Positions 1,691 through 41,598 of a stretch of DNA of 64,000 nucleotides are shown piece after piece. Source of the stretch: Acidobacteriota bacterium. Its GTDB lineage: Bacteria > Acidobacteriota > Blastocatellia > RBC074. Position 1 is the stretch's first letter. Each line of letters starts with the position of its first letter. The notes beneath the pieces were generated by a model. That model made no database searches, was not told the origin of the DNA, and was given only the letters and a program-made list of their open reading frames with translations. Where the stretch lies: the NCBI GenBank assembly GCA_016196035.1, contig JACPYM010000068.1, forward strand, positions 1-64,000, in the 5' to 3' direction. The position numbers were made by a program, and so were the translations under genes.

Positions 1691-1745
1691 GAAAACGTAA
1701 AGCGAAAGCGACAGCCGGACTTGGAACATTGCTTGCACGGTAAGC

Positions 1746-1864: not shown

Positions 1865-1919
1865 CGGTACTTTTCAATCATTGCTTCAAACTCGGTGGTT
1901 CCGGCTCTGTTGTTCCGGC

Positions 1920-2984: not shown

Positions 2985-3001
2985 CAATCCCTTCCCTCGC
3001 C

Positions 3002-3865: not shown

Positions 3866-3888
3866 AGGGAAATGTGGTGTGCGGTTTT

Positions 3889-4034
3889 TAGCTCCGTAGG
3901 AGCGGCCTGTTTATAGAACCGTGCGCGGTCAGTCTCCCTAGCTCCGTAGGAGCGGCATCTGACACATGCCGCTCCTACGGAGCTAGGGGAAAACGGACTG
4001 CCTCAGCTATAAACCGGCCGCTCCTACGGAGCTA
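3889..4034. repeat. Nested double inverted repeat (TAGCTCCGTAGGAGCGGC type)
   Basis: Four copies of a 17-18-bp unit lie in 146 bp, two forward (TAGCTCCGTAGGAGCGGC at 3889 and about 3939) and two reversed (ending at about 3985 and 4034). The inner pair forms a 23-bp perfect stem (3936-3958 with 3966-3988) around a 7-nt loop. The outer pair includes TTTATAG/CTATAAA extensions. Each unit itself contains a short palindrome (CTCCGTAGGAG). It lies between the TonB receptor stop and the FAH start and would fold strongly in mRNA, so it could be an intergenic REP-like element or a processing/attenuation site. Confidence 0.8.
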
Positions 4035-4049
4035 GTTGACAACTCCCGC

Positions 4050-7496: not shown

Positions 7497-7651
7497 AGTA
7501 CCTCTTCCGGTTGGAAACGCCTGCGGGGGGAAAGCAGGTGTGCAGTTGGGAACCATCACAACGACCGGCTGCCACAAGGGCCGCGCTCGTTGCAGATCAA
7601 TGCGCCTGACCTTGCAGGCACGCTTTCTTCCCAAAACAAAGCGTTGCGGTG

Positions 7652-10231: not shown

Positions 10232-10281
10232 CGCTTACCCCATCTCAAATCTGAAATATCAAATTCTTCAATGAATCTTCT

Positions 10282-12512: not shown

Positions 12513-13385
12513 TTAAGGGATCGCTTGCTTCCCCGTCAGGAAGTCCAGGTCTGGATTCTCGCCGATAAAGGTTGACTGAAATTTCAGGAACGGGAACTCG
12601 CCGCCCCAGGCGGGTTTTGTGAAGGCGCCGCGCGCGTCGTAAACAGCTTTTTTCCATTCGTTGCGCGAATCGAACCAGAGTTCGGCCACGCGGTTCCATT
12701 TGCCCGTGCTGCGGACGGAGCGGTAGGTGACGAAGCGTTTGACGCCGGCGCGCGCGGCCAACTCTTTCGCCAGGACTGCGTGAAACCATTGCTCGCCCAC
12801 CGTTTCGCTGACGCCGTCCGGGTAGGCATAGAAGAAAATCCAGCGGAAATACGGATTGTCTTTGGCGGGCGTCGGCTGCTCCACAAAAACCTCGTTGGGC
12901 TTCAGCGGGATCGTCACTGTCTCGTTGCGAAAGCCGCCGCGCAATTCGCCCTTGGGCAGGGTGATCTTCTTCCGCTCTTCTTCGATGTTCACCCAGCCTT
13001 TGTTGAAATCGGCGAGGCTGGCGAAGCCGATTTCGGTCAGACGCCCTTGCCACATATTCATGGCTTTGGCTTCTTCAGGCGGCAAGGCGTAGGTGCGAAA
13101 CGTCGCGTACCTGGTCTGGCGGCTCTGTGTGCGCTGGAGCGTTTCCGGCGCGTGATAAGTGATGTACCAGCGATCCAGCAGCAGCAGGTCGGCGCCGTTC
13201 AAGAGGTCAATCATGATGTAGTGCCTGATCGGGCCGGTCTTTTCGGGATCAAGCGCGGGTTGTTGCGGCGCGGGCGTTGGTTGGGTTTGCGGAGGTGTTA
13301 GCGCGGCCACTCGCCCAGGCTGGTGGCTGGTGAGCAGCAGGCAAAACAGCGCAACATAGACAAGACAATGAAGAGCCTTTCGCAT
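12513..13385 (-). CDS. Exported protein with two EthD-like ferredoxin-fold domains
   Basis: This 290-aa protein has a Sec signal peptide (hydrophobic stretch 7-20, then a Pro/Gln-rich linker to about 50). Two dimeric alpha/beta-barrel (EthD-like) repeats follow, about 52-140 (RHYIMIDLLNG, DRWYITYHAPETLQR) and 180-270 (RWIFFYAYPDGVS, GVKRFVTYRSVRS, VAELWFDSRNEWKKAV). The VAELWFDS segment is the clearest family mark. EthD-like proteins are usually small cytoplasmic proteins tied to oxidative degradation of ethers or polyketide-like rings, so an exported double-domain form is unusual. It is the last gene of the TetR-led operon, 37 bp after the PQQ dehydrogenase. The function is unknown; a role with the exported enzymes is inferred. 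Confidence 0.65.
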   Translation of the reverse strand: MRKALHCLVYVALFCLLLTSHQPGRVAALTPPQTQPTPAPQQPALDPEKTGPIRHYIMIDLLNGADLLLLDRWYITYHAPETLQRTQSRQTRYATFRTYALPPEEAKAMNMWQGRLTEIGFASLADFNKGWVNIEEERKKITLPKGELRGGFRNETVTIPLKPNEVFVEQPTPAKDNPYFRWIFFYAYPDGVSETVGEQWFHAVLAKELAARAGVKRFVTYRSVRSTGKWNRVAELWFDSRNEWKKAVYDARGAFTKPAWGGEFPFLKFQSTFIGENPDLDFLTGKQAIP

Positions 13386-13422
13386 AGTTGATTTCTCCTC
13401 TCGTTGAGACAGGCACCGCGTT

Positions 13423-15378
13423 TCAAGGCAGGCTTAACGCGATTAGTTCGTGCGGCCATTCGCGGTAACCGCAGGCGACGACAATGTATTGCTTCCCGCC
13501 CACTTGATACGTCATCGGCACGCCCATCACGTGCGCGGCCAGTTTGAATTCCCAGACCACTTTGCCAGTGGCTTTATCAAAGGCGCGGAAGAGAGGTTGC
13601 GCGCGCGGGTCGTGCGGCCCTTCGCCGACAAAGAGCAAGGTCTTGGTCAACAGCGGCCCGGCTCTGCCAACCGTGCCGAGCGGGCCGACATCCATATTCG
13701 CCACTCCCATCGCGCGCAACTTCTCGTTCACTTGTTGCCGCGCCCCATCGCCGTTGGGCGTCATCCAGATGATAGCGCCTTTGTTCAGGTTATACGCCGT
13801 GATGCGTCCATAGGGCGGTTTGACCAGCGGCAACCCGCGCGGCCCTACGAGTGGCACATCGCCGCTGGTCAGCTCATATTCGAAATCAGATTCGCGCTTT
13901 CGTTTGCCCAGCGTCAGCGGCGTCGGGTGCGTGATCGAAGGCACGTAAAGCCAGCCCGTTTCCGGGTCTACGGCTGCTCCGCCCCAATTCGCACCCCCGA
14001 CGACGCCGGGCATCATGATCGTGGGCTTGTCGGCAATCGGCGTGAAGAGTGGCCCGGACTCAAACTTCCTGAAGGTCTCCAACGCCTCGGCGCGCAATTC
14101 AGGCGTGTAGTCAATCAAATCGTCTGCGGTCGCGCCTTGTCGCTCGAAGGCTGGCAGTTTGGTTTGAAAGGGCTGGGTCGCCGCAGTCTTTTCGGTCGGC
14201 AATTTCGATTGCGGTACCGGACGCTCTTCAATCGGCCAGACGGGTTTGCCGGTGACGCGATCAAAGACGAAAAGCAAGCCGTGTTTCGTGACTTGCGCGA
14301 CGGCCTTCAGGCGGCGGCCATTAACTTTGAGGTCGAGCAAATTCGGCGCGGCAGGCAAGTCGTAATCCCAGATGCCGTGATGCACCAGTTGATAATGCCA
14401 GATGCGTTTGCCCGTTTTGGCGTCGAGGCACACCAGGCTTTCGCCAAACAACCCATTGCCCGGACGTTCGCCGCCATAAAAATTATTGGTCGGCGTGCTG
14501 ACGGGCAGATAGACATAACCGAGTTCATCATCGGCGCTCATCGGCGCCCAGACGTTGGCATTGCCCGTGTACTGCCACGAATCGTTGAGCCAGGTTTCGA
14601 CGCCGAATTCGCCCGCCTGCGGCACGGTGTGAAACGTCCAGAGCAGCTTGCCCGTGCGCGCATCGAAGCCACGCACATCGCCCGGCGGCATCGCGCGCGT
14701 CGTGCTGCGGTCTTTGATGTAGCTGCCGACGATGACGACATCGCGCACCACCAGCGGCGGCGAAGTGCAGCTATACAAATCCGCCGAACCTTTGACGGCG
14801 CGCGCCAGCCCCACCGTGCGCAGATCAACTGCGCCGTTCTCGCCAAACTGCGCGAGCGGCTTGCCGGTCTTGGCGTCAAGCGCCAGCAAGCGGCTGTCAC
14901 CAGTGGCAAAGAAAATCCGTTCGTCCTGCCCGGCGCGCCAATACGCCACGCCGCGCGTCTGAAAGCCTTTGATCGTCGGCCATTTCACGCGCCACGCTTC
15001 AGGATCATGCACCCACAGCGTCTTGCCCGTCGCTGCGTCAATGGCCGCGACCTGCGACATCGCGGTACTGGTGTAAAGCACGCCGCCGACCATCAGCGGC
15101 GTGACTTGAAATTCGCCGGGTTGCAAGGAGCTGTCGCGTTTGAGGATTGCGCCGTCGGGCGATTCCCAACGCCACGCGATGCGCAGCTTGTTGACGTTCG
15201 CGGCATTGATTTGGGCCAGCGGTGAATACTTGGCGGCACGGTTGTCGCCGCCATACGCGGGCCATTCTTCGGGCTTGGCTTGGCTGGTTTTGGATTGCGC
15301 CGCGACCAACGCCGCACCCGCTAGCATCACGCTCAGCACCATACTCAATCTGCTTCGCCAATGTTCTGAACGTTGCAT
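13423..15378 (-). CDS. PQQ-dependent dehydrogenase (quinoprotein, soluble glucose/alcohol dehydrogenase type)
   Basis: This is a periplasmic quinoprotein of 651 aa. A signal peptide (about 1-28, ending VAAQ) precedes an eight-bladed propeller with the family pattern, for example [16 protein letters not shown] at the N-terminus, [25 protein letters not shown] and [16 protein letters not shown]. It lacks the membrane helices of Gcd and any C-terminal haem c motif (no CxxCH), so electrons must pass to a separate carrier. The expected reaction is oxidation of an alcohol, polyol or aldehyde in the periplasm with PQQ. No PQQ synthesis gene is in the window. The ATG at 15378 is favoured by GAGAGGCGT upstream over a GTG two codons earlier. 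The substrate is unknown. Confidence 0.85.
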
Positions 15379-15402
15379 AAACACGCCTCTCGCTGGTCGT
15401 TG

Positions 15403-16680
15403 TTATCCCGCTTTCGGCAATTCGCGCGGCTTGCCCGGCTCGCCTTCTTTCGCCAACCCCAAATCGAAATAGATCGCATTGGCGAGGTCGAGCATCCGTT
15501 GATTATGCGGCAGCGAACCTGGCATGCCATTCAAGACATACGCCGCGACCAAGCCGTATTCAGGATCGCAGAAGCCCACCGAGGATTGCGCGCCTGCGTG
15601 GCCGAACGCGCGCGGCGAGCAATGATTGCCGTACAGAAAGGCATCCACGATGAAACCCAGCCCCCAGTCAATCACGATGTTGAAGGTTTGATCGAGCATG
15701 CCGGTGCGGTGACGCGCAGTGATGGCTTCGACCGTTTGCGGCGACAGAATGCGCTTGCCATTGAGCGTGCCGCGCTTGAGCAGCATTTCGTAAAAGCGCC
15801 CCAACTCGCGCATCGGGCCGCGTCCGCCCGCGCCGGGGCTGCAATCAGTGTTAAAGGCCTCGCCGTTGGGAACCGGCGTCGCACGCATTTCCGCACCGCG
15901 TGGCGTGGCGTGCATCCAGCCGATGCGGTTGCCATACGCTTTGAAACGTTCGACGGGCATGCCGATCCAGCAATCGTTCATGCCAAGCGGCAGAAAAATC
16001 TCTTCGCGCACGTAATCCGAAAACTTCTTGCCGCTCACGCGCTGCACCAATTCGCCCAAGATGAACCAGCCCGACGTCGGGTGGTAGCCAGCCTTTTTGC
16101 CCGGCACCCAGCCCGCTTCGAGTTCGGCCTGATAAATCTGCTTCAGGTTGTCGGCCATCGAGCGCCCCAACGATTGATTGCCGCCATCGGCCAGCCGAAA
16201 GCCACCGCGATGCGTCAGGACATGGCGAATCGTGATGGCTTCTTTGCCGCGATTGCCGAATTCGGGAATGTATTTGGCGACGGGATCATCCAACTCGAAT
16301 TTGCTGCGCTCCCATTGCTGCGCGACGGCGACGGCGGTGATGGCTTTGGTTGAAGAAAACCAGATCATCATCGTGTCCGTCGCCATCGGCACATCGGCGC
16401 GCGACTGCCCCAGCGCAAAATCGGCCAGCGGTTGGCCGTGCCGCGAGAGATAAAGCTGGCTGCCGATTTGCACTTTGTCCTGCTGCAATTTTTCGAGCAG
16501 GGCGACCGTGCGCGGCAACGTTTGTTTGGGTTCCGCTAGCTTGGGGTTCGCGGTGATAGCTGATGATGTTTGCGCCCGCAACTTAGCAGGCAACAAATGG
16601 AAGCCCAGCGCCCCGCCCGCCAGTCCGAGCAGCGCACGACGCGCTGGCTGCAAGGGATTGTCATTAACTTTGCGCTTCAT
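15403..16680 (-). CDS. Exported serine hydrolase, class C beta-lactamase / EstB-type esterase family
   Basis: This 425-aa protein starts with a twin-arginine-like signal (PARRALLGLAGGALG, residues 13-27). The nucleophile motif SxxK is S109-S-T-K112, followed by a Tyr motif (GYHPTSGW) in place of YxN and a late GHAG motif, the pattern of EstB/CubicO-type esterases rather than true AmpC beta-lactamases. It probably cleaves an ester or amide in the periplasm. The start at 16680 follows GAGGAGCAAG. It is 15 bp downstream of the sulfatase and 24 bp upstream of the PQQ dehydrogenase in a tight operon. A D-alanyl-D-alanine peptidase role is possible but fits the context less well. Confidence 0.82.
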   Translation of the reverse strand: MKRKVNDNPLQPARRALLGLAGGALGFHLLPAKLRAQTSSAITANPKLAEPKQTLPRTVALLEKLQQDKVQIGSQLYLSRHGQPLADFALGQSRADVPMATDTMMIWFSSTKAITAVAVAQQWERSKFELDDPVAKYIPEFGNRGKEAITIRHVLTHRGGFRLADGGNQSLGRSMADNLKQIYQAELEAGWVPGKKAGYHPTSGWFILGELVQRVSGKKFSDYVREEIFLPLGMNDCWIGMPVERFKAYGNRIGWMHATPRGAEMRATPVPNGEAFNTDCSPGAGGRGPMRELGRFYEMLLKRGTLNGKRILSPQTVEAITARHRTGMLDQTFNIVIDWGLGFIVDAFLYGNHCSPRAFGHAGAQSSVGFCDPEYGLVAAYVLNGMPGSLPHNQRMLDLANAIYFDLGLAKEGEPGKPRELPKAG

Positions 16681-16695
16681 TCGATCTTGCTCCTC

Positions 16696-18132
16696 TCAAA
16701 TGCAAAGCTTCAATTTGACGCCGTCCAGCACGACTTCAAATACTTCGCCGGTGGGGCGGCAGGGCCACAGCGGTTGTTTCATGCGCGCGTTCCAAGCGGC
16801 GAGTTCCTGCTTCAGTGCGGTGACGACGGCGGGGTATTTCTCAGCGACGTTTTGTTGTTCACCAACATCTTTCGACAAATCGTATAGCCAGAAATGATCG
16901 CCGCCCTTGAACAGCTTCCAGTTCCCTTTGCGCACTGCCGCGTTGTCGCCATTGCGCCAGCAGAGCACATCGTGCGGTGCGGTTTTCTTTTTGCCGGTCA
17001 AATAGGGCAACAAGTCCAAGCCGTCGTATGCGCGGTCAGCAGGCATTTTCGCGCCTGCCAGGGCCACGGCGGTGGGAAACAGATCGAGCGAACTGATCGG
17101 CTTGTCGTAAACGCTGCCCGCTTTGATTCGGCCCGGAAAGCGGATGGCAAACGGCACGCGGAAGCCGCCTTCAAAATGCGTGAGCTTGCCCAGTCGCAAC
17201 GGATCGTTCGTACAAGCGCCCGTGTACGTCGCGCAGCCGTTGTCGCTCAGAAAGACGACCAGCGTGTCTTTCTCCAAACCGGTTTCGCGCAGCTTGTTGA
17301 GGATGGCGCCGACGGCATCATCCAAGGCGCTGACCATCGCCATGTAAATGCGGCGCTTTTCGTCTTTCACGTGCGGGAAGCGGTCGAGGTATTTTTGCGT
17401 CGCCTGCAAGGGCGTGTGCGGCGCATTGAACGGCGCGTACAAAAAAAACGGTTCATTGCGATGCCGTTCGATAAAGGCGACGGATTCACGCGCAAAGGCT
17501 TCGGTCAGATATTCTTTTTCTTCGACCACCGTTTGGCCGCGCACGATGGGGTTGCGCGCGGTGCGAATTTTGACGCCGACGCCTTCTGGGTCGGCAGATT
17601 TCACGCCCGGCTGATCGGGGTCAATGTACATATTCGCGCCGAAGAGAAAGCCGAAGTATTCATCAAAGCCGCGCTTCTGTGGATGAAACTTTTCGTGCAT
17701 TCCCAGGTGCCATTTGCCGACCATCCCGGTCGCATAGCCCGCCTGCTTCAACACTTGCGCCAACGTGATTTCAGAAGTCGGCAGGCCCATCTCCGGCTCA
17801 GCCAGCGCGCGTTGCAACGGCCCGGTGTTAAACTCAAAGCCAAAGCGTTGCTGATAGCGGCCCGTCAGCAAGCCCGCGCGCGACGGGCTGCACACGGGCG
17901 AACTGACGTACCCATTCGTAAACTTCACGCCTGCCTTTGCAACCGAATCAATGTTCGGCGTCGGGATGTCGCGGCAGCCGTACATGCTCACATCGCAATA
18001 GCCCAGATCATCGCCCAGGATAAACACGATGTTCGGTTTGCGTGGCGCTGGCCTGCCCGCTTGGCGCGGCGCGACGGGCGCTGCGAGCGTGAGCGTTAAG
18101 ACAGCGAGAAAAAACAGTTTGAGCAATCGCAT
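16696..18132 (-). CDS. Exported sulfatase (type I, arylsulfatase family)
   Basis: This 478-aa protein has a Sec signal peptide at residues 1 to about 22. The formylglycine motif is intact, CSPSRAGLLTGR with C81 as the modified residue, and the metal-binding start of the fold is NIVFILGDDLGY (D41, D42). The later VVFLSDNG and GKWHLGMH segments are typical of alkaline-phosphatase-superfamily sulfatases. It would hydrolyse a sulfate ester in the periplasm; the Cys form needs an FGE or anSME maturase, which is not in this window. The start at 18132 follows GAGGTCATCCC. It lies 9 bp after the DUF1254 gene. Whether the substrate is a carbohydrate or aryl sulfate cannot be told. Confidence 0.9.
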   Translation of the reverse strand: MRLLKLFFLAVLTLTLAAPVAPRQAGRPAPRKPNIVFILGDDLGYCDVSMYGCRDIPTPNIDSVAKAGVKFTNGYVSSPVCSPSRAGLLTGRYQQRFGFEFNTGPLQRALAEPEMGLPTSEITLAQVLKQAGYATGMVGKWHLGMHEKFHPQKRGFDEYFGFLFGANMYIDPDQPGVKSADPEGVGVKIRTARNPIVRGQTVVEEKEYLTEAFARESVAFIERHRNEPFFLYAPFNAPHTPLQATQKYLDRFPHVKDEKRRIYMAMVSALDDAVGAILNKLRETGLEKDTLVVFLSDNGCATYTGACTNDPLRLGKLTHFEGGFRVPFAIRFPGRIKAGSVYDKPISSLDLFPTAVALAGAKMPADRAYDGLDLLPYLTGKKKTAPHDVLCWRNGDNAAVRKGNWKLFKGGDHFWLYDLSKDVGEQQNVAEKYPAVVTALKQELAAWNARMKQPLWPCRPTGEVFEVVLDGVKLKLCI

Positions 18133-18141
18133 GGGATGACC

Positions 18142-19542
18142 TCAGTTCACGCGCTGCACCGCAGGCGGTTGGTAACTATTGTTGAGCAACTCAGGTTTCG
18201 GCAGATAGGCGCGCAAACTCAGGTTGAAATCGCCTTTGGGCGCGGGCAGCCAATTGGTTTCGTGTCCGGCGGGCGCTTCGTTCTGCAAATAAATCGTCAG
18301 CCCGCCATCCGCGTCGTATTGCAACCCGCGCGTGCGGTCGCCAATGGCAAAACGGTTGAGGGGGTTTTCGATGAAGAAGAAATCCGCCGCATAGAGCGTC
18401 AACGACCAGAATTCGTGCGCGGGCGGCAACTGGCCTTTGGCAAAGCGCAACACGTATTCGTGCGCGCCGTTGAGCGGCTGCCCTGCGCCATCCACATCGG
18501 TCGTCAGGTAGGCGGCCTCTGCCGGGATGAGTTGCCCAATGCCTTTTTCCGTCACAAAGGCGCGGAACAGATATTCATCGCCGAAGGTGCCGCCTTTGGT
18601 CACGACCAGCCAGCCATTTACCCGCTTCAACGCTTGATCGGCGCGCGAGGCAGTGATGATTTGCCGCGCCGCTGGAATGGCCCGTTGCAAACCCGCCTTC
18701 GTCGCTTCGTCGAGTTGTGCCGGGACAAACCCGTCTTTAACGCTCAAGCCAATCAGCGCGAATTGATCGAGCAAGGCGGCATCGGTGGCGGGCGGCGGAT
18801 TGCGTTGCAGCAACGCGCCGAGCTGCTCAAAGAAGGCCAGCGGCGCGCGCGCCTGCGCGGCGGGTGCGGATGATTTTGCAGGCGGCGTCTGGCTAGGCGT
18901 TTTGCTCTGCCACTGGCTGAGTGTTTGCAGCTTGATGCCTTCCTGCAACGCGATCACGCCCGGCCAATCTTTTTCGTCGGCGATTAAGGCGCGCACGAGC
19001 AGCCAAACCGAATTGGTCGGCGCGGGAATGCGCGTGAGGCCTTTGGGAATTGTGCCTTTCCAGTTCGGCCCGGTGAGCAGGTAATCCGCTGCCGCGTCGC
19101 GCGTGTTGCGTTTGCTGAGCACGTGGAAATTGTTCGTCCAGGCGTCATAAAACGCATAGCTGCAATACCGCCCTTTGGTCACGGGCGTGTGCAACACCAG
19201 CGGTTCCTGCGCCAAGTCGAGCCAGGCGCTGGAATACACCGTGTCATTGTTGGGCGAAACGACGACGCGGTCTTGCTGCGTTTGCAAGCGGCGGCGATGA
19301 CGAAACTCATTCGGACTGACATTCGATTGCTGCATGGATTGCTGGCGCACCTGCTCCATTTTGACCAGTGGAAACCCGTAAATGTACGCCAACACGCCCA
19401 GCGCATACGCCAATTGCTCGCGCGCCTTAAATTGTTCGCTGCCGGTGTCGCTGTTTTTTGCTTGTTGCGCCCGCACGCCAAAGGGCGCGCCGCACAACAA
19501 CAAGCTGCAAAACAAAAGCAAGTTTCTCATTGTGTTTTTCAT
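18142..19542 (-). CDS. Exported DUF1254/DUF1214 protein
   Basis: This 466-aa protein has a signal peptide (MRNLLLFCSLLLCGAPFG region). An N-terminal DUF1254 domain (YIYGFPLVKMEQVR, VVVSPNNDTVYSSAWLDL, YCSYAFYDAWTNNF) precedes a C-terminal DUF1214 domain (EFWSLTLYAADFFFIENPLNRFAIGDRT, GGLTIYLQNEAP). The biochemical role of this common exported pair is unknown to me. The ATG at 19542 overlaps the stop of the MmgE/PrpD gene by four bases (ATGA), so it is translationally coupled; a second ATG follows four codons later. It belongs to the TetR-led operon of exported enzymes. Confidence 0.85.
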   Translation of the reverse strand: MKNTMRNLLLFCSLLLCGAPFGVRAQQAKNSDTGSEQFKAREQLAYALGVLAYIYGFPLVKMEQVRQQSMQQSNVSPNEFRHRRRLQTQQDRVVVSPNNDTVYSSAWLDLAQEPLVLHTPVTKGRYCSYAFYDAWTNNFHVLSKRNTRDAAADYLLTGPNWKGTIPKGLTRIPAPTNSVWLLVRALIADEKDWPGVIALQEGIKLQTLSQWQSKTPSQTPPAKSSAPAAQARAPLAFFEQLGALLQRNPPPATDAALLDQFALIGLSVKDGFVPAQLDEATKAGLQRAIPAARQIITASRADQALKRVNGWLVVTKGGTFGDEYLFRAFVTEKGIGQLIPAEAAYLTTDVDGAGQPLNGAHEYVLRFAKGQLPPAHEFWSLTLYAADFFFIENPLNRFAIGDRTRGLQYDADGGLTIYLQNEAPAGHETNWLPAPKGDFNLSLRAYLPKPELLNNSYQPPAVQRVN

Positions 19543-21080
19543 TGTGTTTTACGGGGCAAAGGCTGAAGCAATTTGTGCAGAGCGGCTGTCCACTCCGCCA
19601 CGTTCTTGACGGTATCCAACCGCTCAACCATCTCGATGACTTGTTGGCGCGTGCTCACCGTCAGCCGCTCGCGCGTCAGCGCCGCAAATTTCGCCATCCG
19701 CATTTCCTGCATCACCGGTTCCGGCTTCTCGCCGTGGCTATATTTGAAGGGCGCGCTAAGGGTGCGACCAGCGCGCAGCACCAGCTTGACGGCGAAGTCA
19801 TCGGTGGGCGCGACCAATTCGTAGCCAGTTTTAGCCGCCAACGCCAAAACCGCCTTGTCCTGTAGAGCGGCGGGCGTGAAGTCGTAAACCGAGGCCGAGC
19901 CGCGTTGCAGAAACAGCGCAATCGAATAGTTCATATTCAACTGCGCGCCGACGATGGTGGGCGGCGGCTCGAAATGCAGAATCTTTTGCACGAACGGCGA
20001 ATCCAGCGGCCATTCGCGGACAATCACGAAGCGTTCGATGTCGGCGGGTTGGAGTTTTTCGCGTTGGTAAACGGGCGCGAGCGCATCCAGAAACGGGCCA
20101 ATCGAAGACGACGTCGAAGTGAATTTCGGATAGACGTAAAGCGGCCCTTCAAATTGCCGCAGGTCGCGTTTCAGCGCGGCGTAATCAGGCTTGCGCCCCG
20201 TCTCGCGCAGATAACTCGGCAACAACCCGCTCGCGCCTTCGACAATGTGGCGCGGCCCTTCATAGCCTTTGGCGGCCAGTTGCGCCGACTCGACGCCCAT
20301 GCGCACGGTGCGCGCAACGTGCAGTTTCTTCTCTTCGGTCTGATCGAAGTAATACTGAAACAGTCCGCCGCCACCTGCGATGCCCAAACCCAGCGCCCAC
20401 AGCGTCTGTTGCGCATTCAGTTTCATCAGCTTCGCCGTGGCGGCTGCCGTCCCGCCGCCGCCCACCACCGACGAAGGCATAAAACCCAGCCCCTGCAACC
20501 GATCAAGCTGCGCGGCCAGGCGGCCATTGACCGTGTAGGCAAGCGCCGTCGCCAGCAACAAATCGCGGCCCGTGGCTTGGGTGTATTCGGCCACACTCAA
20601 CGGCGCGGGCAACGACACGCACGAAGGGCGATAGTTGCTGCGAAAATCGCTGTCATCAATCTCGTTGCCGTGAATCAAAAAAGCGTTGCAGGCGGCGGCA
20701 GTTTCCAGCGGCAACTTACGCCCATAGCCCCACACGGTCGCTTCCGCCGGGCCTGCGTTGCGGAATTGGCGGTCGAGGTAGCTGCGCAGTTCCGGCAAGG
20801 TGGAGGTGTGCACGATGACGCCCAGGTTATCGAGGATGCAAAGTTTCGTTCGTTGAAGGACTTCGGCGGAAAGGTCTTCGTAACGCGCGTTGGCGATCGC
20901 GTCGGCCCACACGGTGGTCACGCTTGATGCGTTCTGTGTCTGTGCCCAAGCTGTCTTTGCTACACCTGCGCCGAGCACGGCGGCGTGGGCGGCTTTGAGC
21001 CAAGCACGACGCGAAAGGCGTTCGCCCCTGGTTGCGTGTTGTTGCGTTTGCGCGAGGGAGAATCCGTCTTCTTTGTGCAT
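19539..21080 (-). CDS. MmgE/PrpD family protein with twin-arginine signal
   Basis: This 513-aa protein resembles the MmgE/PrpD (2-methylcitrate dehydratase, cis-aconitate decarboxylase) superfamily in its core (DNLGVIVHTS, NAFLIHGNEIDDSD, ALGLGIAGGGG, EGASGLL, YPKFTSTSSSIGPFLDAL). Unlike classical cytoplasmic members it begins with a clear Tat signal, SRRAWLKAAHAAVLGAG at about residues 23-39, ending before AWAQ. It should therefore fold in the cytoplasm and be exported. The expected chemistry is dehydration, decarboxylation or isomerisation of a carboxylic acid, but the substrate is unknown. It lies 15 bp after the esterase stop and overlaps the DUF1254 gene. Confidence 0.85.
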   Translation of the reverse strand: MHKEDGFSLAQTQQHATRGERLSRRAWLKAAHAAVLGAGVAKTAWAQTQNASSVTTVWADAIANARYEDLSAEVLQRTKLCILDNLGVIVHTSTLPELRSYLDRQFRNAGPAEATVWGYGRKLPLETAAACNAFLIHGNEIDDSDFRSNYRPSCVSLPAPLSVAEYTQATGRDLLLATALAYTVNGRLAAQLDRLQGLGFMPSSVVGGGGTAAATAKLMKLNAQQTLWALGLGIAGGGGLFQYYFDQTEEKKLHVARTVRMGVESAQLAAKGYEGPRHIVEGASGLLPSYLRETGRKPDYAALKRDLRQFEGPLYVYPKFTSTSSSIGPFLDALAPVYQREKLQPADIERFVIVREWPLDSPFVQKILHFEPPPTIVGAQLNMNYSIALFLQRGSASVYDFTPAALQDKAVLALAAKTGYELVAPTDDFAVKLVLRAGRTLSAPFKYSHGEKPEPVMQEMRMAKFAALTRERLTVSTRQQVIEMVERLDTVKNVAEWTAALHKLLQPLPRKTQ

Positions 21081-21095
21081 CAGGCTTTGTTCCGT

Positions 21096-22058
21096 TTAGC
21101 GTTCGGGCACGCCCCATTGTTTCTTGAGCGGCGCGATGCGTTGCTTCAAATTTTCCACTTCAGGATCGGGCGGCGGCGGATTGAGCGTGCGCGACAGAAA
21201 CTCCAGCCCTTCCATAATGCGGCCCCGCATCGTGCGCCCGACGTGATCGGCCCCGCGCACGAGATGATATTCGTGTTTGAGCTGCTGATCCCACAAAACG
21301 CGATGCAAAAACTCCGCCGCTTCGTGCAGGTTTAAGCTGTCTTCATCGCCGACCTCCAGATAAATTCCGAGGTTGGCGGCGCGCAGCTTGTCCGCTTTGG
21401 CGCTGACAATCGAAGCTGGATTGTTCGCCTCCCACCAAGCTTCGTCGAACGGTTTGCCGAAAATCATCTCCATCAAATCCTGTCCGCGATAGAAACGGTT
21501 GCGCGGTTTGACGTCTTTCCACTTCAGCGCCGGATCAATGCCCGGTTCAAGCGCCGCCAACGCCGCGAATTTCTCCGGGTACTTGAAGCCAAAGCGCAAC
21601 GCGCCCATCCCGCCCATCGAAATGCCCATTACCAGTGTGCCTTGTCGCGCCTTGGTGACTTTGAATTTCTCGCGCAGATGATTGAGGAAGTCCGTGACGA
21701 CAAAGGTTTCCCAGCGCTGCGAGCCGTCCTTGTAATCCATATAAAACGACCGCCCCGCGCTGGGCGTCACGACAACCATTGGCGGCAACGTGCCTGCTTT
21801 CCAGAGTTCGTCAAAAATGGAGCGGGAGCGCGTCAGAAAGTTGCGGTCGCCACCACCACCGTGCAAAAACAACAGCAGCGGCAACGGCTCTTTGGCTGCG
21901 TCGTAACCATCTGGCAACAGCACGTTGTATTCGACTGGCTGCGGCAGCAGCTTGCTTTCCAGTTTGCCTTCGACCAATTGACTGGCCATTACGGCAGGCG
22001 CAAGCCAGCCACAGAACAACAGATAAACGCTTAAGCGCACGAATAGACGTTGTTGCAT
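21096..22058 (-). CDS. Exported alpha/beta-hydrolase esterase (esterase D/feruloyl-esterase-like)
   Basis: This 320-aa protein has a Sec signal (about residues 1-25). The hydrolase fold shows an oxyanion segment (LLLFLHGGGGDRNF), the nucleophile elbow GISMGG with S147, an acid region (EVGDEDSLN) and the catalytic His in GADHVG. Esterase D-type folds include feruloyl esterases, S-formylglutathione hydrolases and mycolyltransferases; secretion favours an ester-cleaving role on an external substrate. The ATG at 22058 follows GAGAGGAACCG and gives a proper signal peptide, while the longer ORF does not. It is the first enzyme gene after the TonB receptor (48 bp) in the operon. Confidence 0.82.
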   Translation of the reverse strand: MQQRLFVRLSVYLLFCGWLAPAVMASQLVEGKLESKLLPQPVEYNVLLPDGYDAAKEPLPLLLFLHGGGGDRNFLTRSRSIFDELWKAGTLPPMVVVTPSAGRSFYMDYKDGSQRWETFVVTDFLNHLREKFKVTKARQGTLVMGISMGGMGALRFGFKYPEKFAALAALEPGIDPALKWKDVKPRNRFYRGQDLMEMIFGKPFDEAWWEANNPASIVSAKADKLRAANLGIYLEVGDEDSLNLHEAAEFLHRVLWDQQLKHEYHLVRGADHVGRTMRGRIMEGLEFLSRTLNPPPPDPEVENLKQRIAPLKKQWGVPER

Positions 22059-22106
22059 CGGTTCCTCTCTGGCGTTCGTGCGTTGGCACGGACGCATTGC
22101 TCGCTT

Positions 22107-25100
22107 TCAAAAATAGAGCTTCAAGGCGAACTGCATTTGCCGCGCATCTTCCGCCGCCAGCAGCCGCCCAAAGTTCGCCGCGCCCAGAATGGTCACCGGG
22201 GCCGTGAAATTCGCCCGGTTGAAAAGGTTGAACGCCTCGACGCGGAATTGCAGCCGCATGGTTTCGGCGAATTTGAAATTACGCTGCAACGACAGATTCG
22301 TGCTGAGATAACCCGGTCCGCGCAGATTCGCGAAGGTGCGCGGCGCATTGCCGAAGGTGTATTGCGGCGGGGTCTGAAAGGCGGCGGCGTTGAACCACTG
22401 CAACGTTTCCTTGCGTTGCGCCGCGTCGGCAATCACCGGGTCAGCCACCAGATTCGGACGCAAGCCAATGAAAGACAGCCCTTGCAGGCCGGCGTTGACC
22501 GCCGAGATGCTCAGCGGCAGTCCCGTCTGTGCCTGTACGATGCCATTGACGCCCCAACCACCAACAAGCTGACCGACAACGCCGTTTTTCAGCACGCGCC
22601 CGTCATAGCCAAACGGCAGCTTCCAGGTCACGTTGCCGATCAAGCGCTGCCGCACATCGAAGGTCGAAAGCGCCTTGTTCGCGCGGCGGTTGTAGTAATC
22701 CTGATAGTTCGGCACCTGAATCGTCGCGCCGGCGGAAACGCCGGAGATGTCGTCAATCGTCTTCGCAAAGGTGTAGCCCGCCGTGAAAAGCAGCCCATCG
22801 CTGAAACGCCGCTCCAGCCGCAATTGCAAAGCGTGGTAGGTCGCATGCGCTTCATTCATGTTGTAGGACACGACGTTGCCGAACTGCGGATAAGGCCGCA
22901 GCAATTGCCCCACCGTCACCGTCGCGCGGCCCAAAATCGAAGTTGCCGCCGGGCGTTGTTCGACCGGCAAAGTCAGGAAGGGATTGGCAACCGTCGTGTT
23001 GAGAATGGTCGCGCCCAGCGCCTGCACTTCGGGCGTCAATTGATTGATGTCCGTCGGGCCGGAGAGCAGGCCGATGCTGGCGCTGCCCGCGTAAGCGGCT
23101 TGCGCTTTCAAATGCCAGGGCAGTTCGCGTTGCAGGCTCAAATTCCATTGCCCGATTTTCGGCTGATAGATGTTGCGCACCTTCACCGGCAACGTCTGCT
23201 GGCCGTAGCCGTACAACGCGCCCGGAAACGCCGCCGGAACCTGCACGATACCGTTCGGGAAAGGATTGCTCAGACTGGTGCCGGGCGTGGGCGTCACATT
23301 GTCGAGCGTCGCAATGAAGGGCGTTTCGGCAATGTCGGAAAGCGCGTAGGTTTGCGTCGCAAAGCCGCCGCCTGAATTGGACGAATAGAAAATGCCGCCA
23401 CCCGCCCGCAACACGGTTCGGTCATCCAGTTTGAAGGCCAGCCCCACGCGCGGCCCCCAGTTGTTCAAATCGCGGTCATATTGTTCGCGGTCGCTGACGC
23501 CGTTGCGTCCGACCGGCGTCACGATGCCGCGCAGTGGTAGCGTCCGCGTGCCCAAATTGGTCGTCGCCGGGAAATTGACCATCAGATTGCTGACCGGAAA
23601 TTGTCCGCTCAGATCAAGGTTGGTCAGCCGGTTAAAACGTTCGGTGTTGCCCAGGTCAACTTCCCAGCGCAGCCCCAGATTGAGCGTCAAACGGCTGTTG
23701 ACCTTCCAATCGTCTTGCGCAAAGAACGCGTAATAGAGGCTCTGCACCGCCGGTTGCGGCACAATCGCCAGCCGCCCGACGTTCGGATTGCCCAGCAGCA
23801 ACGACGCCACGGCATCGCCCGATTGCGTATCGTTCGCCGTGCGCGCCGTGAACGCGCGCGTGAACGTGAAGTTGCCCGCCGGATCGTCAGGCCGCGTGTT
23901 GTAAATGCGATAGGCGCGTTGATTCGCGCCGAACTTCCAGGCATGCGCGCCCAGCAACAGGCTGACATCCTGGTTCAAACTGAAGGTGTCTTGAATGTTG
24001 CGCGTGTTGCCGAAATTGCGCGTCGGGCCGAGCGCGCTATACCCATTGACCGTGAACGACGGAAAGACATGGGCATCGCCCGAGGCGTTGGCCAGATAAG
24101 CCGGGAAGCCCAGCGAGGCCGGATCGAAACCATCGGAATAGGTGGTGCTGGTCGCCACCGATTCGGTCACGCCCGCATTGCTATGCACCACGACGCGCGG
24201 CGAAACCGTCCAGACATAATCCACCACGGCGGAACTCGGCCTCGATCTGAGCACGGGACTGGCCTGCGTGCCCGCCAGACTGCCGGGAAACGGCCCGGCG
24301 TTGAAGGAAGAAGACATGTCTTTGATGACGCGCACATAAACCAGATGATTCTGTGAGAGGTTGTAATCCAGCCGCGCGACGACCTGATTTTCATTGCTCG
24401 TGACCGGCGAATTGACGACATAGTTGCTGGTGAAGCCGGCCCGGTTCGGCAACGGATAAGCGGCGATCACGTTGCGTCCGACGCTGTTCTGACGCGCCGC
24501 TGGAATCACATTATTGGCAAAGACGATGCGTGAACCAGCGCCCGGCTGCCCGGCGGCCACCAGCGCGCCCGGCACATAAATCATGCCCACCCGCGCCGGC
24601 AGTAACACACCCGCGGTGTCGCGCACCGTCACATTCGGAATGGCCGCGCCCAGCAATTCAGAGAAATCACCTTCGCGTTGTTTCAAGGTCGCCACATTCG
24701 ACTGGCGCAACCGCGCTTGCCGCACGCGCAACCCTTCGTAGTTGAAAAAGAAAAACAACTTGTCGAGCTTCTTCACCGACGGCCCGCCCGTGCCGAAACG
24801 CGGCAGGTACACCGGCCCGCCCAGGTTGCCGCCGAACTGGTTGAAGCGGAACTTCTCTTTTTGCGAACCCGTCTGATTGACGAAGAAGTTGGCCGCATCC
24901 AGCGCGTCGTTGCGCAAAAATTCAAACAACGTCCCGCGCAGCTTCGTGCTGCCGGAGCGCACGGAGAAGTTGAGCGAACCGCCGCCTGTGCGCCCGTATT
25001 CCGCCGCGTATGAGTTGGTGATGATGCGGAATTCCTGAATCGCTTCGGGCGACGGGCGGAACGAGGGCAGATTGTCGGCTTTGTTGGTGATGGGCACGCC

Positions 25101-25706
25101 ATCCACCACGATCTCGTTGGTCAGGGTGCGCCCGCCATTGATGGAAAGTTCGCCCACGCCGCCCGCGCTCAAGGCGGGCGTGGCACTGCGCGAGCCGGGC
25201 GAACTGCTGACGCCGGCTTCGAGTTGCGCCAGTTGAAAGACGTTGCGGCCATTGAGCGGCAAATCGTCAATTTGGGTGCGCCCCACGACGCCGCCCAGTG
25301 AACCGCTGGCCGTGTCGAGTTGCAGCAGGTTTTGGCTGGCCGCGACGGTGATGGTTTCGCTGATGTTGCCGGGTTCCAGCGCGATGTTGAGTTCGGCGTT
25401 TTGCGCGACGGCCAGCTCCAGGCGTTCCAGCTTGTAGCCTTTGAAGCCCTGCGCCTGCGCCTCCAGCGAATAGGCGCCGGGTTCGAGGAAGGTGAAGGTA
25501 TATTGCCCATCACCTCTGACCGCGAAGGTTCGTTTCAGCCCGGTCGCCGCCTGTGTCAACGTCACGGTCGCGCCCGGCGTGACGTTCCCGCCGCCGTCCA
25601 CCACCGTCCCCCGCAGCGTGGCCGTGGCAGTTTGCGCCAGCGCCGCGCCGCTCAAGACCATCAGCCAGAATGCCGTAAGGCGGGCCAATCTATTCAGTTT
25701 AGGCAT
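22107..25706 (-). CDS. TonB-dependent receptor, Oar-like, of the TetR-led operon
   Basis: This 1199-aa outer-membrane protein has a signal peptide of about residues 1-24 (ending ALAQ), a carboxypeptidase-regulatory-like domain (about 28-110, LRGTVVDGGGNVTPGATVTL), a plug with DLPLNGRNVFQL (about 150-165), and a large barrel ending FALKLYF. It shares the architecture, but not close sequence identity, of the receptor at 4050-7496. The ATG at 25706 follows AGGAGGTTT. Only 21 bp separate it from the TetR gene stop, so it is probably co-transcribed with the regulator. It should bring the operon's substrate, or a product released by extracellular attack, into the periplasm where the exported enzymes act. 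The ligand is unknown. Confidence 0.88.
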   Translation of the reverse strand: MPKLNRLARLTAFWLMVLSGAALAQTATATLRGTVVDGGGNVTPGATVTLTQAATGLKRTFAVRGDGQYTFTFLEPGAYSLEAQAQGFKGYKLERLELAVAQNAELNIALEPGNISETITVAASQNLLQLDTASGSLGGVVGRTQIDDLPLNGRNVFQLAQLEAGVSSSPGSRSATPALSAGGVGELSINGGRTLTNEIVVDGVPITNKADNLPSFRPSPEAIQEFRIITNSYAAEYGRTGGGSLNFSVRSGSTKLRGTLFEFLRNDALDAANFFVNQTGSQKEKFRFNQFGGNLGGPVYLPRFGTGGPSVKKLDKLFFFFNYEGLRVRQARLRQSNVATLKQREGDFSELLGAAIPNVTVRDTAGVLLPARVGMIYVPGALVAAGQPGAGSRIVFANNVIPAARQNSVGRNVIAAYPLPNRAGFTSNYVVNSPVTSNENQVVARLDYNLSQNHLVYVRVIKDMSSSFNAGPFPGSLAGTQASPVLRSRPSSAVVDYVWTVSPRVVVHSNAGVTESVATSTTYSDGFDPASLGFPAYLANASGDAHVFPSFTVNGYSALGPTRNFGNTRNIQDTFSLNQDVSLLLGAHAWKFGANQRAYRIYNTRPDDPAGNFTFTRAFTARTANDTQSGDAVASLLLGNPNVGRLAIVPQPAVQSLYYAFFAQDDWKVNSRLTLNLGLRWEVDLGNTERFNRLTNLDLSGQFPVSNLMVNFPATTNLGTRTLPLRGIVTPVGRNGVSDREQYDRDLNNWGPRVGLAFKLDDRTVLRAGGGIFYSSNSGGGFATQTYALSDIAETPFIATLDNVTPTPGTSLSNPFPNGIVQVPAAFPGALYGYGQQTLPVKVRNIYQPKIGQWNLSLQRELPWHLKAQAAYAGSASIGLLSGPTDINQLTPEVQALGATILNTTVANPFLTLPVEQRPAATSILGRATVTVGQLLRPYPQFGNVVSYNMNEAHATYHALQLRLERRFSDGLLFTAGYTFAKTIDDISGVSAGATIQVPNYQDYYNRRANKALSTFDVRQRLIGNVTWKLPFGYDGRVLKNGVVGQLVGGWGVNGIVQAQTGLPLSISAVNAGLQGLSFIGLRPNLVADPVIADAAQRKETLQWFNAAAFQTPPQYTFGNAPRTFANLRGPGYLSTNLSLQRNFKFAETMRLQFRVEAFNLFNRANFTAPVTILGAANFGRLLAAEDARQMQFALKLYF

Positions 25707-25727
25707 GTTGATGAAACCTCCTGAAAG

Positions 25728-26453
25728 CTATTTCCGGCTGCGTTGCGCAGCTTTCACCGGATGACTGTTGCCGCGCCGCGCCGTGGTTGCGGGTGGCGCG
25801 ACGGTGCGCAAGGGCGCGCGCGTCTTGGGGCGCAAAAGCCCCGTCAGCGCGGCTTTGGTGAATTCTTCGATCACTTGTGCGCGCGTCAAACGGCCCGCCG
25901 AACTGTACCAGCGGGCCAGCCATTGCAATTGCCCGATCAGATTGTGCGTGGCGACGGTGACATCCAAATCGTGCAGCTTGCCCTCGTGCTTGAGCCGTTC
26001 GACGATGGCCCGCACGAATTTGTAATAGCGCGTGCGGCGGGCGGCGATGAGCTGGCGATCAGCCACGGTCAGCCCGGCGCTTTCATCCAGCAGAATCGTC
26101 ATCTCGATGCCTTTATCAATGATGAGCTGGGTGTGCAGCTTGAGCACCGCGCGCAACTGCTGCTCCGCATCCGCCAAGGACTCTGCCGGTTGCTGCACTT
26201 CCAGTTCCAGCATATCCAGCGCATAGCTCATGACTTTGAAGAGCAAACTCTTTTTGCCGTCAATGTAGTGATACAAGCCGCCTTTGGTAATGCCGACAGC
26301 ATCCGCAATTTCGTTCAGCGAGGTCGCGTCATACCCCTTTTCATGAATCACCCGCGCCGCCGTTCGATAGATCAACAGCAAACGCTCATCTTCTCCCAGC
26401 CGGGATAGTTTGATGGGCACTTTTGCGTCTATGGCTAATTTGGTTCCTTGCAA
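25728..26453 (-). CDS. TetR-family transcriptional regulator
   Basis: This 241-aa protein has an N-terminal TetR helix-turn-helix (AARVIHEKGYDATSLNEIADA, then GITKGGLYHYIDGKKSLLF, about residues 32-78) and an all-helical ligand domain, then a basic Ala/Arg/Pro-rich C-terminal tail of about 35 residues. The start is a TTG at 26453 with GAGGT 7 bp before it; no ATG gives the full HTH. It is the first gene of a nine-gene minus-strand operon. A palindrome with TetR-operator character lies at 26679-26720 in the putative promoter, so autorepression is likely, released by a substrate-derived ligand. A 180-bp MITE-like repeat sits between promoter and gene. Confidence 0.88.
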   Translation of the reverse strand: MQGTKLAIDAKVPIKLSRLGEDERLLLIYRTAARVIHEKGYDATSLNEIADAVGITKGGLYHYIDGKKSLLFKVMSYALDMLELEVQQPAESLADAEQQLRAVLKLHTQLIIDKGIEMTILLDESAGLTVADRQLIAARRTRYYKFVRAIVERLKHEGKLHDLDVTVATHNLIGQLQWLARWYSSAGRLTRAQVIEEFTKAALTGLLRPKTRAPLRTVAPPATTARRGNSHPVKAAQRSRK

Positions 26454-26491
26454 GTTTTACCTCATTGCGCCGGAGATTTTTGGTAAGGCGG

Positions 26492-26671
26492 TTTAGACCG
26501 GATTGCAGATCGGTGTACGGGGAAAAGCGTGCGGCGGGACAGTACCGCGCGCGTCAGCAAGCGGTGCATCAGCGTTGGCGGGATGAGCTACAGATCAAGC
26601 CTCCGCTTGCTGACGCGCGCGGTACTGTCCCCACCGACGCCGCCCATACATTCATTTGCAAACCGATCTAA
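26492..26671. repeat. MITE-like 180-bp element, full copy
   Basis: It has terminal inverted repeats (TTAGACCGGATTGCAGATCG on the left, GCAAACCGATCTAA on the right) and subterminal arms of about 27 bp (GGGACAGTACCGCGCGCGTC then AGCAAGCGG, and the reverse CCGCTTGCTGACGCGCGCGG then TACTGTCCC). It is exactly the same length as the copy at 52971-53150. It has no open frame and looks like a non-autonomous transposable element. It lies in the predicted leader of the TetR operon. Confidence 0.8.
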
Positions 26672-26678
26672 GTTTTCG

Positions 26679-26720
26679 TTTCTACCGGACGGTCGAAACA
26701 TCCCGACCGGTCGGTAGAAA
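26679..26720. promoter_or_regulatory. Probable TetR operator
   Basis: The arms TTTCTACCGGACGGTCG (26679-26695) and CGACCGGTCGGTAGAAA (26704-26720) are complementary at 15 of 17 positions around 8 bp. The right arm contains the self-complementary ACCGACCGGT type of site common for TetR-family repressors. It lies immediately downstream of a possible minus-strand promoter and about 230 bp before the TetR start codon. Confidence 0.65.
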
Positions 26721-26745
26721 TAAACCTAAACACGGATTTCGTCAA
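26718..26745 (-). promoter_or_regulatory. Possible promoter of the TetR-led operon
   Basis: On the minus strand TTGACG (26745-26740) and TTATTT (26723-26718) are 16 bp apart; the -10 box is weak. It abuts the palindromic operator, which would then cover the transcription start. This implies a leader of over 200 nt containing the MITE-like hairpin. Confidence 0.4.
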
Positions 26746-26828
26746 GCTGGCGCAGACGCACCTGGGCTCTTGCAAGGTCGTCAGCAAGAGCATTTGAATG
26801 GATTGGCTGGATTCTGATTCCTGATTCC

Positions 26829-26880
26829 TGACTCCTGGTAGCTCGAAAATCCTGGCTGATTTTCGAGCTACCAGGAGTCA
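26829..26880 (-). terminator. Perfect 23-bp hairpin after acyl-CoA dehydrogenase gene
   Basis: The arms 26829-26851 and 26858-26880 (TGACTCCTGGTAGCTCGAAA and its complement) are perfect around CTGGCT. The hairpin lies 25 bp beyond the stop of the acyl-CoA dehydrogenase gene and before the TetR operon promoter. There is no clear U-tract, so Rho-independent termination is uncertain; it would at least separate the two units. Confidence 0.55.
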
Positions 26881-26904
26881 GGGGTCAGCGGAGCGTCCGC
26901 CGCG

Positions 26905-28659
26905 CTACCAACGATAACGCCCTGACGCTAACAAAGACGCGGCCACACGCCGCCGGGCGGCAATCGTATTGAGCGGACGTACCGCCGCCAGGCGCGCCAA
27001 CACCTCAGACAATTCGACCGCGCCTTCCAATGTGGCTGCCAAGCTCCGCGCATTCAGCGCGATGCGTTCGGCGGCGTCATTGGCGTAAATGCACGTCAAC
27101 TCCAACGGGAACTCCCGCCGGTCTTCGGCAAATTTCTGCGTGCGCAGGCAGGCGCTTTCCAGCGCGTAGGTCTCGGCCACGATGTCCGCCACCAAGCCCA
27201 GCACTTCCTGCTCTTCAGCTAATTGATCGCCAAAGGCGCGCGCCACCGCGTCCAGCACCAACAGCGATGTGCGCTTGGCCTGCGTCAGCACTTGTTGCAC
27301 ATACACCAAGCCCGCACAGGCGGCGGCTGGTTCAGTCGCGCCCGCCAGGATTTGGCCAGTCAGGATTTGGGCGGCCCGCTCGCGCAACGGCCACTGGCCG
27401 CGGGCTTTCAACAGCCGCGTGGCAATGATGACGCGGTTGATCTCGTTGGTGCCTTCATAGATGCGCGTGATGCGGGCATCACGGTACGCGCGCTCGGCGG
27501 GGTAGTCTTTGGAATAACCATAGCCGCCAAACACCTGCACCGTTTCGTCAACGACGTAACCCAACGCCTCGCTCGTCCAGATTTTGTTGATCGAACATTC
27601 GACCGCGTATTGTTCGATGGCCTTGAGTGCCTGCAAGGGATCGTTGGCATCCACCGTTTCCAGCGCCTGATCCACCATGCCCAGGGTGCGCCAGACCAGC
27701 GCATCGCCGACATAACAGCGCACGGCCATTTCAGCCAGCTTGCGTTTGATCAAGCCAAAGCTCGCAATCGGTCTGCCGAATTGTTCGCGTTCTTTGCTGT
27801 AGGCAAGCGCGTTGTTCAAGGCCAATTTCGACTGGCCCAGATTGCGACCACCCAGTTTCAAGCGGCCCAGGTTCAGGATATTGAAGGCGACGACGTGCCC
27901 CTTCCCGATTTCGCTCAGCACGTTTTCGACGGGCACGCGGCAATCTTCCAGCATCAACGCCGTGGTTGAACTGCCATCCAGGCCCAGCTTTTTTTCTTCG
28001 TGACCGCTGACGACGCCGTGACCGCGTTCGACAATGAAGGCGGTGAATTTGTCGCCATCCACTTTGGCAAAAACGATGAACACATCGGCAAAGCCCCCGT
28101 TGGTGATCCACATCTTCTGCCCATTGAGAATGTAGTGCGTGCCGTCGGCGCTGAGCGTTGCTTTGGTTTTGGCCGAGAGCGCGTCTGAACCGGCGGAGGG
28201 TTCGGTCAGACAATACGCCGCGATCAATTCACCGGTCGCCAGCTTCGGCAGATATTTCTCGCGCTGGGCCGCCGTGCCGAAATAAACAATCGGCAGCGTG
28301 CCAATCGTCGTATGCGCGCCCAGGCTTGCGCCGAATGAGGGCAGCAGCGCGATGGCCTCGCCGACATAGGCCGAGCTGACTTTGTCCAAACCGAGGCCCC
28401 CATACGCTTCGGGAATGTCTATGCGCAACAGATCGAGTTCGCCGGCTTTGAGCAACAACGCGCGCGTGACGGCCCAGTCTTTGGCATAGATCTGCTCGGC
28501 GCGCGTAAGCACTTCCTTGCGCATGAATTCTTCGGCCACCCCCGCGAACATTTGCTGCTCTTCGCTGATGTCTTCGCGGGTGAAAACTTCGGCAGGTGTG
28601 CGATCTTCGTAAAGAAAGCTGCCACCTCGGATAACGGATGGGGTTGTACTTGTTTGCAT
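26905..28659 (-). CDS. Acyl-CoA dehydrogenase, long FadE/VLCAD-like form
   Basis: This FAD enzyme of 584 aa catalyses the first step of beta-oxidation. The catalytic core has AYCLTEPSAGSDA (flavin and substrate loop), KMWITNGGFADVFIVFAK, and the late YEGTNEINRVI motif with the usual catalytic-Glu region. A C-terminal extension of about 180 residues, as in VLCAD/ACAD9-like enzymes, follows and makes it longer than the common 380-aa family. The ATG at 28659 (MQTST) is chosen over an upstream ORF start in the leader; AAAGG lies 11 bp before it. The gene appears to be a separate unit, upstream of the TetR operon on the same strand. The acyl chain length preferred is not known. Confidence 0.9.
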   Translation of the reverse strand: MQTSTTPSVIRGGSFLYEDRTPAEVFTREDISEEQQMFAGVAEEFMRKEVLTRAEQIYAKDWAVTRALLLKAGELDLLRIDIPEAYGGLGLDKVSSAYVGEAIALLPSFGASLGAHTTIGTLPIVYFGTAAQREKYLPKLATGELIAAYCLTEPSAGSDALSAKTKATLSADGTHYILNGQKMWITNGGFADVFIVFAKVDGDKFTAFIVERGHGVVSGHEEKKLGLDGSSTTALMLEDCRVPVENVLSEIGKGHVVAFNILNLGRLKLGGRNLGQSKLALNNALAYSKEREQFGRPIASFGLIKRKLAEMAVRCYVGDALVWRTLGMVDQALETVDANDPLQALKAIEQYAVECSINKIWTSEALGYVVDETVQVFGGYGYSKDYPAERAYRDARITRIYEGTNEINRVIIATRLLKARGQWPLRERAAQILTGQILAGATEPAAACAGLVYVQQVLTQAKRTSLLVLDAVARAFGDQLAEEQEVLGLVADIVAETYALESACLRTQKFAEDRREFPLELTCIYANDAAERIALNARSLAATLEGAVELSEVLARLAAVRPLNTIAARRRVAASLLASGRYRW

Positions 28660-28758
28660 TGAAATTGTGCCTTTCGAAAAGAGAGGATGGCAGTCACTGA
28701 ACAATCGCAGGTAGTGGCGAAATCCGGTAGTGTCCTAAAGTTGTGTTGCCAGCGAGTG

Positions 28759-41479: not shown

Positions 41480-41598
41480 AACTCCCCTGCTTTCTGAGAA
41501 AGAACGATTTGATTGAAACCTGAAGGGTGTTTGCCAACGGCCCGTCAACGACAGGGAGTCAGACAAGCGCGCCTGCTAGCCTGACTCCCTTGCCTGAG

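Follow-up and report, generated by a model that had tools for sequence, protein, structure and literature searches.

The described systems closest to the locus considered here are the TonB-dependent-receptor utilisation loci (CUT and PUL-like loci) of Gram-negative bacteria, which unite one receptor with a local regulator and with degradative enzymes that are exported. In the window, i.e., the whole stretch of 64,000 nucleotides that was analysed (positions 1 to 64,000 of contig JACPYM010000068.1 of an Acidobacteriota bacterium with a genome of 9.6 Mb), nine minus-strand open reading frames at 12513–26453 have this make-up, with the receptor co-located with a regulator and with exported catabolic enzymes. 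The operon differs from the CUT and PUL-like loci in that it also holds a PQQ dehydrogenase, a chalcone isomerase relative, an exported MmgE/PrpD protein and a DUF1254 protein; moreover, domain annotation revealed no SusD-like protein and no glycoside hydrolase or lyase among the nine operon proteins, so that the operon is not to be counted as a PUL. No paper describing this gene set was found in the literature. As discussed below, the operon is real, partly conserved and unusual in composition, and we propose, tentatively and at somewhat less than even confidence, that it is a TonB-receptor-centred utilisation operon under its own TetR regulator, the substrate of which would be esterified, possibly sulfated and probably phenolic (plant polyphenol-like).

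In the order of transcription, the operon consists of the genes for a TetR regulator (25728–26453, domains TetR_N and TetR_C_24, TTG start), a TonB-dependent outer-membrane receptor (TBDT, 22107–25706, domains CarboxypepD_reg, Plug and OMP_b-brl_4), an exported esterase of PF00756 (21096–22097), a Tat-type MmgE/PrpD protein with a non-canonical active site (19539–21080), an exported DUF1254/DUF1214 protein (18142–19542), an exported S1 formylglycine sulfatase (16696–18132), a Tat-type esterase of the EstB/class C beta-lactamase fold (15403–16680), an exported soluble PQQ dehydrogenase (13423–15384) and an exported two-domain 'EthD' protein (12513–13385), with successive gaps of 21, 9, 15, −4, 9, 15, 18 and 37 bp. 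The families, order, place and tight spacing of the nine genes agree with the original prediction, while the several overlaps that it described come down to one, that of the MmgE/PrpD and DUF1254 genes (4 bp), the positive gaps being 9–37 bp. Inside the operon, sites resembling promoters or terminators are no more frequent than is expected from shuffled sequences. As judged by eye and by hydropathy, Sec-like signals are present in the TBDT, the PF00756 esterase, the DUF1254 protein, the sulfatase, the PQQ enzyme and the EthD protein and Tat-like signals in the MmgE/PrpD protein (SRRAWLKAA) and EstB (ARRALLGLAGG), with no export signal in TetR; with signals in eight of the nine, the claim that all products except the regulator are exported or reside in the outer membrane is upheld.

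The operon is headed by a predicted TetR-type operator at 26679–26720, a palindrome of the form TTTCTACCGGACGGTCG-n8-CGACCGGTCGGTAGAAA, the 17-nt arms of which are complementary at 15 of the 17 positions around a spacer of 8 nt, with a perfect core CCGACCGGTCGG at 26703–26714. When both genomes were scanned, the exact 17-nt half-site was found once in the window's own genome, where every other place carries at least two mismatches, and once in G003, a metagenome-assembled genome of the same family but a different genus. The uniqueness of the half-site in its own genome suggests a local regulator. In G003 (contig C104) the half-site directly precedes a TetR gene (64–67% identity), with a TBDT gene (74%) next to it and oriented alike, so that the single palindromic operator proposed earlier is supported by a relative. 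The operon is probably autoregulated. The nearest named models of the TetR protein include the FadR/FasR type, with scores far under the cut-off. At 5 of the 15 loci examined, a paralogous TetR has an acyl-CoA dehydrogenase or ligase gene nearby, which would point to a ligand of the acyl-CoA type. Just upstream of the operon lies a FadE-like acyl-CoA dehydrogenase gene (26905–28704). Note also that the operon leader between the operator and the TetR gene contains a dispersed inverted-repeat element (26525–26642), REPIN/MITE-like, roughly 100 nt in length and occurring at about 40 places in the genome, and that a perfect hairpin with 25-bp arms and a 6-nt loop (26827–26882), possibly a terminator or a repeat element, is present just downstream of the acyl-CoA dehydrogenase gene.

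The conservation of the operon is partial. At the edge of another G003 contig (C103) the DUF1254, sulfatase and EstB genes are found in the same order (70, 79 and 84%, respectively, with the range for DUF1254 being 70–72%). The contig C104 ends soon after the TBDT gene, with a 257-aa membrane-protein-like product and then the start of an alpha/beta hydrolase, and the sequences are compatible with, without proving, the ends of C103 and C104 belonging to one operon. No strong MmgE match is present in G003, and the PQQ and EthD genes are absent from the retrieved part of its operator-TetR-TBDT operon; an EthD homologue, a 55% PQQ homologue, a TBDT and a TetR (40%) occur within 13.6 kb at a second G003 locus (C168). 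It is noted that at this second EthD/PQQ-type locus (L006, 1082–9425) a PQQ-cytochrome c fusion protein is also present and the 55% PQQ homologue is divergent and broken by a run of N. A 65% homologue of the MmgE/PrpD protein is found in genome G011 without the rest of the operon, its surroundings (T6SS/FHA genes and an FGE-domain gene) being judged uninformative. A genome-wide DUF1254 scan matched G003 and a 36% Pseudomonas homologue and no more, and the DUF1254 neighbourhoods elsewhere in the phylum are without the operon, two of them holding weakly similar sulfatases. In searches of 396 genomes of the phylum each for DUF1254, EthD and MmgE, which are samples that may miss rare relatives, and among the best DUF1254 neighbourhoods, the full nine-gene set was not found elsewhere.

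A related cluster is present in another phylum, at about 36–48 kb of the plasmid NZ_CP039697.1 of Novosphingobium sp. EMRT-2. There, TetR, TBDT and PQQ (57%) genes, an EthD gene (44%) right after the PQQ gene, a DUF1254 gene (34%) and, nearby, an exported PHB-depolymerase-type esterase are found, with Tat-like signals in the EthD and DUF1254 proteins. By contrast with the window, this cluster carries an acyl-CoA ligase, its TetR is divergent and only weakly similar, and no sulfatase, EstB or MmgE is present in the flanks searched. Further PQQ homologues on plasmids reach at most 41%, and the clusters in which they lie are unrelated. The adjacency of PQQ and EthD is thus common to the Acidobacteriota window and Novosphingobium. 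Since ordered blocks recur in G003, and since PQQ-EthD recurs beside TBDT, TetR and DUF1254 in another phylum, the arrangement is, as judged from sequence, beyond chance. The original prediction had proposed that gene order be compared among the Acidobacteriota and had named conservation in no relative as the outcome that would count against it; a part of the order is kept in G003, over two contigs, while the nine-gene set is complete only here. As the complete set was found nowhere else, the gene comparison presents it as a composite of two recurring modules and lineage-specific genes.

The 'EthD' protein, for which no match was found in Pfam or NCBIfam, matches the chalcone isomerase (CHI) of Eubacterium ramulus (PDB 3zph and 4d06) with E 3e-12, and its homologue in G003 matches the same enzyme independently. 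In that enzyme His33 is catalytic and Tyr48 stabilises the carbonyl (PMC8361940, PMC9694015). In the alignment, for which a CHI-type protein of 278 aa from another acidobacterial genome (L060) was used as the yardstick, with about 28% identity to the window protein, His33 and Tyr48 are kept as H78 and Y93, Thr71 is aligned and conserved, and Asp36 is replaced by Glu. The two-domain architecture is likewise shared with the E. ramulus enzyme. The window protein differs from the E. ramulus enzyme in that it is exported, in that neither of the A-ring-binding residues Gln69 and Gln101 is present, with Gln69 replaced by Arg (a change shared by the Novosphingobium and G003 proteins and by two more) and Gln101 lost, in that His73 is replaced by Ile, and in that the lid (residues 106–130) is shorter. 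We thus regard it as, by its sequence, a distant chalcone isomerase relative with the predicted catalytic base intact and, with Gln69 and Gln101 missing and the lid short, do not class it as a chalcone isomerase proper; the earlier description of it as a double EthD captured the two domains and missed the kinship. Proteins of lower similarity, called 'branch B', in which the helices of the catalytic domain are restructured, were reported to have no CHI activity, and it is mostly anaerobes or facultative anaerobes from which the known bacterial chalcone isomerases come (PMC8361940). For the window protein, structure prediction from the single sequence gave a poor model (pLDDT 37). It is also noted that the yardstick gene itself (10208–11044, genome G428) is a CHI-type candidate having His33, Tyr48, Gln69, Thr71 and Gln101, and that in genome G392 two chalcone-isomerase-like genes (L059, 9459–12163) lie near genes for an esterase, a carboxylesterase and LVIVD and UGSC-family proteins, possibly another catabolic cluster.

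Of the hydrolases, the PF00756 esterase has ferulic acid esterases as its closest solved relatives, and EstB, with an SSTK (SxxK) motif, most closely resembles Esterase A and related carboxylesterases. The sulfatase (PF00884, E 2e-68) contains the C-x-P-S-R maturation motif as CSPSR with Cys81, and among solved structures it comes closest to S1_19 carrageenan sulfatases (E 2.5e-109). The PQQ enzyme has the PF01011 propeller at full length, lacks the N-terminal membrane domain and scores 443 bits against TIGR03074, the glucose/quinate/shikimate family, which is under the cut-off of 833 bits; it has a WDYD/TKHG region conserved among homologues, which may be the active-site region of PQQ dehydrogenases. 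No pqqC match was found in the genome, nor in the control genomes, and for pqqE the genome gave radical-SAM matches only, under the cut-off. Gram-negative bacteria commonly scavenge PQQ (PMC12124388), and as no PQQ biosynthesis gene was found, the cofactor is probably scavenged by this bacterium as well.

The MmgE/PrpD protein shares with cis-aconitate decarboxylase (ACOD1), IDS epimerase and PrpD the fold family and the equivalent of Lys207 (hIRG1 numbering), and is unlike them in having a Tat-type signal and in having both general-base histidines replaced, His103 by R151 and His159 by Met; the Arg and Met recur in the 65% homologue from G011. In ACOD1 the two histidines are both regarded as working bases, and IDS epimerase uses the counterpart of His103 as its base (PMC7347537). 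Without both of them, dehydration or isomerisation by the window protein cannot be assumed. The DUF1254/DUF1214 protein has VPA0106 and VPA0735 as solved relatives, and no assignment of a DUF1254 function was found in the literature. These results bear on the scheme of the original prediction, in which the compound is de-esterified, desulfated, oxidised with PQQ and then dehydrated or isomerised in a single line. One regulated operon, with a receptor and wholly exported enzymes, is retained from that scheme. The linear order is not, given the lost MmgE/PrpD histidines and the failure to find PQQ biosynthesis, and the absence of sulfatase and EstB from Novosphingobium and of PQQ and EthD from the G003 part argues for a modular set rather than an obligatory line.

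Downstream of the operon, past a GntR gene on the opposite strand, lies a separate minus-strand cluster for aromatic ring cleavage (344–11208), of which the original prediction made no use. It encodes a PcaK-like MFS protein, a gentisate 1,2-dioxygenase, an FAA hydrolase, a TBDT, a LigB-type dioxygenase, a LigK/PcmE aldolase, a PIG-L protein, which, we presume, may be a GalB-like hydratase, and a DUF6282 protein; the gentisate 1,2-dioxygenase and the LigK/PcmE aldolase are both above the curated cut-offs of their equivalog models. The cluster likely has a regulator of its own and does not lie beside the related loci in G003 and Novosphingobium, so that its link to the operon is suggestive only. 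Elsewhere in the window, at 34322–51566, three adjacent giant minus-strand open reading frames of 2414, 1556 and 1739 aa carry FG-GAP, BACON, HYDIN-like and cohesin-like domains and probably encode surface or secreted proteins.

Based on the proposed reading, the receptor would bring an esterified, possibly sulfated and probably phenolic compound into the periplasm, where the PF00756 esterase and EstB would cleave ester bonds, the sulfatase would remove sulfate, the PQQ enzyme would oxidise an exposed alcohol with scavenged PQQ, and the chalcone-isomerase-like protein may act on the carbonyl product, either isomerising it by acid-base catalysis or opening a ring. The aromatic products could then feed the adjoining gentisate/LigB-type ring-cleavage genes, and the ligand to which TetR responds is probably an acyl- or aryl-CoA that arises in the cytoplasm and would signal consumption of the substrate. 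A phenolic ester is favoured here, rather than established, because of the ferulic acid esterases nearest to the esterase, the chalcone isomerase kinship and the adjoining aromatic cluster; the substrate may, less probably, be a lipid ester or a sugar that carries sulfate. Counted against the proposal are the carrageenan sugars on which the enzymes nearest to the sulfatase act, the absence of the aromatic cluster beside the G003 and Novosphingobium loci, and the loss of Gln69 and Gln101 with the short lid, together with the reported inactivity of the 'branch B' proteins as CHI, and also the failure to find pqqC, or pqqE above the cut-off, and the finding of the full nine-gene set in this genome only.

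The carrageenan sulfatases, together with the sugar/quinate/shikimate family of the PQQ enzyme and the TonB receptor, would fit a sulfated carbohydrate (e.g., a sulfated galactoside or an acylated sugar) that is deacylated, desulfated and oxidised by PQQ, which we consider rather unlikely, because no glycoside hydrolase or lyase is among the annotated open reading frames of the operon and its flanks, the Novosphingobium PQQ/EthD/TBDT set has no sulfatase in the flanks searched, and the chalcone-isomerase-like enzyme would have no obvious role. That enzyme would be equally unexplained if the substrate were a lipid, a terpenoid or another long-chain alcohol or ester, cleaved in the periplasm and oxidised with PQQ to an acid for beta-oxidation; this is doubtful also since the acyl-CoA dehydrogenase gene is not part of the operon, its place being on the upstream side of the operator, and no such gene is seen at the G003 operator-TetR-TBDT locus, while the FadR/FasR-type models, the TetR paralogues near acyl-CoA dehydrogenases, the FadE-like gene upstream and the acyl-CoA ligase in Novosphingobium speak for it. 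Finally, there may be no single pathway but a kit of exported hydrolases and oxidases, promiscuous and under common regulation, that shuffling has put together. The presence of PQQ and EthD on another G003 contig, the solitary MmgE in G011 and the different genes after the TBDT in G003 are consistent with such a kit, but G003 keeps the operator, the regulator, the receptor and the DUF1254-sulfatase-EstB order, and the PQQ-EthD adjacency is maintained across phyla, which makes it quite improbable.

Taking the phenolic reading further, the operon may represent an aerobic route, hitherto undescribed, by which conjugated polyphenols are processed outside the cytoplasm through the joint action of a TonB receptor, removal of ester and sulfate groups, oxidation with PQQ and a chalcone-isomerase-like enzyme that is exported, the PQQ/isomerase pair being common to Acidobacteriota and sphingomonads; we regard this as a speculative and unlikely extension. 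If it is true, a chalcone-isomerase-type step and PQQ chemistry would take place in the periplasm of soil bacteria, and the operon would provide the first pathway context for DUF1254/DUF1214 and for a subfamily of exported MmgE/PrpD proteins without the standard catalytic histidines.
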